DNA from: an uncultured Peptococcaceae bacterium
Lineage (GTDB): Bacteria > Bacillota > Peptococcia > Peptococcales > Peptococcaceae
DNA: 50,480 nucleotides
NCBI GenBank assembly: GCA_949743265.1
Contig: CATJSX010000109.1
Location: forward strand, 1 to 50,480
Direction of reading: 5' to 3'
The notes under the pieces are model-generated. The model worked only from the letters and a program-made list of their open reading frames with translations. It was not told where the DNA came from and did no database searches. Shown in pieces: positions 6,121 through 6,246 of the stretch (positions are counted from its first letter, which is position 1; each line of letters starts with the position of its first letter). A program made the translations under genes and the position numbers.

Positions 6121-6217
6121 GGAATATGCTTGTTTATTCCATCGGTAGATATCGGTTGCTCAAATGAACCGAACAAATTTCGGGCTTTATTTGAGCTTTT
6201 TGTATAACCGAAGATCT
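6121..6217 (+). promoter_or_regulatory. Structured purA leader with attenuator-like hairpins
   Basis: The leader contains a small hairpin GGAATA/TATTCC (6121-6140) and then a nested structure. GCTCAAAT (6158-6165) pairs with ATTTGAGC (6189-6196), with CCGAA/TTCGG inside, followed by TTTTTG (from 6197): a terminator-like element. TCGGTT (6152-6157) can pair with either AACCGA copy (6167-6172 or 6206-6211); the first pairing excludes the terminator stem. This is the layout of a transcription attenuator. It does not match a riboswitch class I recognise. CCGAAC at 6169-6174 also resembles the PurR box core, so protein binding to DNA is an alternative. Confidence 0.55.
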
Positions 6218-6246
6218 TAAGTGGATGAGAAAAGGGGTTGGCGTAT

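Follow-up and report, generated by a model that had tools for sequence, protein, structure and literature searches.

The product of purA takes IMP to AMP and sets the balance between adenine and guanine nucleotides. In the stretch of DNA analysed here (the window, 50,480 nucleotides from an uncultured Peptococcaceae bacterium), a terminator-like hairpin lies between this gene and its own promoter, and the locus raises the question of what that hairpin does and what, if anything, reads it. An initial annotation of the leader had proposed an unrecognised attenuator or riboswitch built from mutually exclusive hairpins, with PurR boxes in the DNA as the alternative; a direct check of the leader sequence found every element that it had described (Table 1). 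Transcription of purA would begin near 6121. Relatives carry a promoter with the identical 17-nt spacer layout upstream of the hairpin, and the AAGGGGTTG of the purA ribosome-binding site is also kept in relatives.

Table 1. Features of the purA region, in coordinates of the window.
Feature	Position	Strand	Remark
Sigma-70-type promoter	6086..6114	+	TTGACT-17-TAAGAT, TG ahead of -10
Inferred transcription start and small 5' hairpin	6121..6140	+	GGAATA/TATTCC; start placed from -10 position
ATCGGT direct repeat (6141, 6151) and TCGGTT (6152-6157)	6141..6157	+	lineage-specific, outside conserved motif
Conserved purA-leader terminator motif	6154..6205	+	matched by covariance models R1 and R2
Terminator-like hairpin	6158..6196	+	base GCTCAAAT / ATTTGAGC conserved; inner stem CCGAA/TTCGG lineage-specific
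First AACCGA	6167	+	within hairpin; CCGAA core 6169
U-tract of hairpin	6197..6202	+	TTTTTG
Second AACCGA	6206..6211	+	CCGAA core 6208; able, in the full-length leader, to pair so as to enclose the terminator; not conserved
Ribosome-binding site of purA	6230..6237	+	AAAAGGGG
Alternative purA start	6238	+	TTG; ATG at 6247
purA, adenylosuccinate synthase	6247..7530	+	TIGR00184, 598 bits (cut-off 395.55)

The hairpin exceeds what chance would produce: the segment 6122-6201 folds at -22.7 kcal/mol, compared with -13.2 +/- 2.75 kcal/mol for shuffles (z -3.5). The window's family shares the same purA promoter, and five of its loci (L003, L004, L006, L024, and L026) have the same hairpin base with different upper stems that still pair; these divergent stems show compensating changes. 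Of the 6121-6140 segment, family members have in common only the GGAATATG start. Four other loci of the family (L005, L008, L009, and L010) have kept the purA promoter and lost the terminator hairpin, L005 and L008 also keeping the GGAATATG start, and the hairpin is therefore dispensable. These four loci are natural deletions, useful for comparison.

Across 46 genomes of the class, the pattern CTCAAA...TTTGAG followed by T has 25 matches, of which 3 are at purA. When named genomes were scanned with a single PurA protein, the results were mostly distant species but included four loci (L033, L035, L047, and L050); CTCAAA...TTTGAG is present upstream of purA in Bacillota MAG CTSoil_073 (L033), bacterium ADurb.Bin236 (L047), and Propionispira raffinosivorans (L050). 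Upstream regions of purA from 100 further genomes of the phylum were added, and a promoter-plus-terminator scan of 232 purA upstream regions gave more members and a fuller consensus, CTCAAATAG...TCTGTTTGGGTTATTTTT. The motif, an element of 45-50 nt that follows a promoter, can be written R-CUCAAAURG-loop-YURUUUGRGU-UAUUUUU (or with UNUUUUU as its tail). It precedes either purA or the gene of a FAD-dependent oxidoreductase with a PF21688 C-terminal domain, which we take to be COG2509 and which usually heads the operon ahead of purA, sometimes with purB between.

The pairing of this element is conserved in evolution. In an alignment of 35 members, the 11-pair helix has standard pairs in 93.4% of its cells and double-sided changes in 16 cells, compared with 5.8 +/- 2.0 in shuffles, pair counts that are biased towards the structure because the alignment had been fitted to it. 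The covariation score of the same alignment is 0.278, as against 0.202 +/- 0.013 when shuffled and no more than 0.113 in slid controls. Two C-G pairs are invariant and the CAAA/UUUG run is almost so, while the apical part of the hairpin varies freely in sequence and length. Like the window, the members combine a stable hairpin (mean energy -13.0 kcal/mol) with a U-tract, all having 5-7 T within 8 nt 3' of the stem. The T-tail is often interrupted (UUAUUUUU); most members end in TTATTTTT, 10 of the 35 have A at the first position past the closing pair, and the window has CTTTTTG. A hairpin followed by TTNTTT on the non-template strand is the signature of a NusG-dependent pause or terminator. 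A full stop, a pause site, and a terminator that is weak or dependent on a factor would all be equally compatible with an interrupted tail. Of 38 members, 27 have a promoter matching at 10/12 positions or more no further than 110 nt upstream (1.2 expected from shuffles), the -10 element being 12 to 78 nt from the stem. The stem of L047 and that of L314 begin ~5 nt after the inferred transcription start, and consequently no upstream aptamer or antiterminator fits there.

The range of the motif and the genes that it accompanies were followed with two covariance models, the sequences for which were initially chosen by the CTCAAA pattern: R1, of 20 sequences, searched 239 genomes of the phylum, and R2, of 35 members, searched 398. 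Both models match the motif in the window, R1 with 33.3 bits (E 6.8e-06, the search space being the window) and R2 with 35.2 bits (E 4.0e-4, the search space being the genome). Outside its training set, R1 gave 28 matches in the 239 genomes, 18 of which, including the nine best, lie upstream of purA or the FAD-oxidoreductase. R2 has a match at E<=0.01 in 50 of its 398 genomes, and its 32 best matches (E<=5.1e-4) are all at one or the other of these genes, that in G090 being assigned by position alone. In the window's order, the motif is at the purA/oxidoreductase operon in 11 of the 19 genomes with a PurA match. At L035, an untrained locus among 80 named purA loci, it lies 1.5 kb ahead of purA, from which the oxidoreductase gene separates it, and in three genomes (G160, G086, and G119) it is found with the oxidoreductase and without purA in the stretch fetched. 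Lower-scoring matches at other genes (a LicT-like regulator, RtcB, and the antisense of coding regions) are probably ordinary terminators or chance.

Several other loci have related arrangements. At L328, L330, and L331 the motif stands before the FAD-oxidoreductase gene, which is followed by genes of the response-regulator type, not by purA; the response regulator after the oxidoreductase at L328 carries an HD domain. The FAD-oxidoreductase may accompany the motif more constantly than purA does. A similar hairpin, CTCAAATATG...CATATTTGAGCTTTTT, occurs in two genomes from different families (G163:C23:8605-8658, L335; G020:C27:13018-13075, L153), ~70-80 nt ahead of the gene for a glycyl-radical-enzyme activase; this activase is a possible second target gene, or the locus may have been transferred. 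At L148 and L297 (G022:C151), a promoter is followed by CTCAAATATTTCC...GGAAATGTTTGAGGGTTTT, another leader with the same stem base, which lies downstream of an apparent secF and precedes the gene of a 117-aa membrane protein and a long reading frame beginning MSEEQIWQVKKLDNKKIEAIAEKLKV.

At gathering and at relaxed thresholds, Rfam gave no relevant match to the leader or to the motif, in agreement with the initial annotation, which had recognised no purine, ZTP, PRPP, or ppGpp riboswitch consensus. The annotation's idea of an unrecognised attenuator is borne out in that the hairpin belongs specifically to purA operons, is conserved with covariation, and has no entry in Rfam. A search of the literature, mostly outside subscription journals, found nothing on purA attenuation, on control of purA at the RNA level, or on this FAD-oxidoreductase, and purA goes unmentioned in the main text of a wide-ranging survey of premature terminators (PMC2965389). 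Intrinsic-terminator attenuators of biosynthetic genes, the class covered by that survey, likewise have a hairpin and U-tract in the 5' leader between promoter and gene; the purA motif differs in that it conserves the letters of the stem rather than an upstream sensor, and no antiterminator partner was found for it. A stem sequence that is common to many distantly related bacteria and absent from Rfam suggests an undescribed switch on purA.

Taken together, these features are consistent with a leader that would function as a promoter-proximal transcription attenuator of purA, most likely one in which a trans-acting factor alters read-through, and we place the probability of this reading at roughly 60%. 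RNA polymerase would start near 6121 and make the hairpin at 6158-6196 with its U-tract; a fraction of the transcripts would stop ~80 nt from the start, and the remainder would read through into purA. The trans-acting factor, which might be an RNA-binding protein or NusA/NusG acting on stem and tail, would alter read-through with adenylate demand. The comparisons show conservation, covariation, a place after a promoter and before these genes, and absence from Rfam; termination in the cell, the regulation of read-through, and the trans-acting reader are what we infer. A trans-acting factor is most likely because the conserved letters lie in stem and tail, the apex is variable, and the shortest members have no room for an aptamer. 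The strongest reason to favour a reader is that pairing alone would not demand identical letters across many families; the strongest reason to disfavour an upstream aptamer is that the shortest members have almost no leader.

Attenuators of the PyrR, TRAP, HutP, and LicT types offer a parallel, since there a trans-acting protein reads the leader RNA and sets termination, PyrR doing so in a nucleotide pathway. These types recognise loops, repeats, or a separate antiterminator, whereas in the purA motif the recognised part would, as proposed here, be the terminator stem and its tail. On a wider scale, an undescribed attenuator family may govern purA, purB, and the FAD-oxidoreductase in a large part of the Bacillota, its terminator stem being read directly by an RNA-binding regulator or acting as a minimal hairpin riboswitch; for this broader proposal the odds appear to us about even. 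With the alignment, the covariance model, and the set of genes that the motif supplies, it becomes feasible to look for the RNA reader and its signal. Common control would also tie an uncharacterised FAD-oxidoreductase to adenylate synthesis, a lead on the function of that enzyme, and the motif would illustrate how an attenuator can keep its conserved information within the terminator.

A simpler arrangement would be a terminator of fixed, partial efficiency, or a 5' stabilising hairpin, that sets the level of purA independently of any signal, with the sequence serving to tune efficiency. Such an element makes a sensor unnecessary, and it fits both the relatives that have dropped the hairpin and retained purA and the finding of no partner structure in member leaders. 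However, pairing and a U-tract would be enough for it, and it would not require identical CUCAAA/UUUGRG letters in many families beside a variable apex; it also leaves the preference of the motif for purA and the FAD-oxidoreductase unexplained. It is, in our estimation, rather unlikely.

Less probable still is a small, self-contained riboswitch in which the stem base and the U-rich tail form the ligand pocket, possibly as a U.A-U triplex, with no separate aptamer. The concentration of conserved letters in stem base and tail would suit such a pocket, the element can occur by itself as close as ~5 nt to the inferred start, and its target genes serve AMP synthesis; but neither an unpaired pocket nor a loop is conserved, any terminator has such a tail, and Rfam recognises no known riboswitch of such a shape. 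The purine G-box, ZTP, PRPP, ppGpp, and preQ1 riboswitches likewise place purine genes under transcription termination control, as is predicted for the purA motif, but the motif has no Rfam match to any of them and no conserved aptamer.

The mutually exclusive hairpins of the initial annotation make a third alternative, which we consider very unlikely: TCGGTT would turn the terminator off by pairing with the first AACCGA and enclose it by pairing with the second, perhaps under a ligand-binding upstream part. In the window, TCGGTT at 6152 is indeed able to pair with AACCGA at 6167 or at 6206, and among prefixes of the leader folded in turn, those ending near 6173-6180 have the competing hairpin as their best predicted structure. 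With the 3' arm complete, though, the competing fold is 8.5 kcal/mol worse (-18.4 versus -26.9 kcal/mol for the terminator, at 6201). The double complementarity of TCGGTT is weak evidence, a 6-mer complementary to both the hairpin side and the downstream region being present in 144 of 5000 shuffled leaders (~3%) and one complementary to at least the hairpin side in 26%. The annotation had suggested testing the purA leaders of relatives for covariation; this holds for the terminator stem and fails for the TCGGTT/AACCGA pairings, which were not found in relatives that keep both promoter and terminator. Nor did the 38 member leaders contain a conserved upstream competitor for the 5' arm: only 1 of the 38 stands above shuffles at p<=0.05, and leader complementarity to the 5' arm averages 5.5 nt compared with 5.0 nt in shuffles. 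A conserved aptamer upstream is likewise missing, with L047 and L314 near-leaderless and no match in Rfam. The mechanism was dropped because the pairings are missing in relatives, complementarity is not in excess, the energetic penalty is large, and the chance rate is ~3%.

The other proposal of the initial annotation, that the CCGAA cores of the leader are PurBoxes bound by PurR as DNA, is highly improbable. PurR control of purA in Bacilli has the same target gene, and a PurR homologue, which the annotation had suggested looking for, is encoded in the window's genome (PF09182, 89.3 bits); the leader also has CCGAAC AA at 6169. PurBoxes, however, are 14-bp boxes with CGAA/TTCG cores, set 16-17 bp apart, and at the pur operon their place is immediately upstream of the -35 element (PMC8789054). 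In the window leader there are no such paired boxes upstream of the -35 element; instead, CGAA and TTCG begin 9 nt apart, downstream of the transcription start. Among the 21 purA promoters that have a core and a good promoter, 16 carry the core 14-46 nt ahead of the first base of the -35 hexamer, typically at about -45 and -15, whereas the core in the window is at +83 relative to that point. Near-consensus PurBoxes are not enriched genome-wide (150 matches with <=1 mismatch versus 238 in the reversed control), and none of six exact PurBox sites checked is at purine genes. The genome's own purE-purB-purC-purF operon (L348, G000:C38), by comparison, has upstream TTCG cores in an AT-rich context, one of them directly before the -35 element TTGACC (~15 nt), and PurR control of this operon is probable. 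PF09182 is absent from 11 motif-bearing genomes, several of them ~99% complete and one (G003) from the window's own family, and PurR was therefore rejected as the reader of the hairpin. Given the wrong position relative to PurBoxes and the motif-bearing genomes without PurR, the CCGAA cores most likely belong to the inner stem of the terminator, which is specific to this lineage, rather than being operators.

Leader-peptide attenuation of the pyrBI kind, in which coupled ribosomes translating a 13-codon ORF (6126-6167) would melt the terminator, was rejected as extremely unlikely. The frame starting with the ATG at 6126 does stop within the 5' arm, but ATG frames enter the hairpin at the rate of chance (12 of 32 members versus 12.8 expected), no conserved translated ORF reaches the terminator, and L047 and L314 are almost leaderless.

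Two further observations concern the window and its genome. Two membrane-protein genes of 484-485 aa and similar sequence (1-1564 and 8493-9947) flank the purA region and are apparently paralogous transporters. Away from the pur operon, the genome has a second, divergent SAICAR-synthase gene (L347, G000:C49:20263-20889; PF01259, 128.8 bits).
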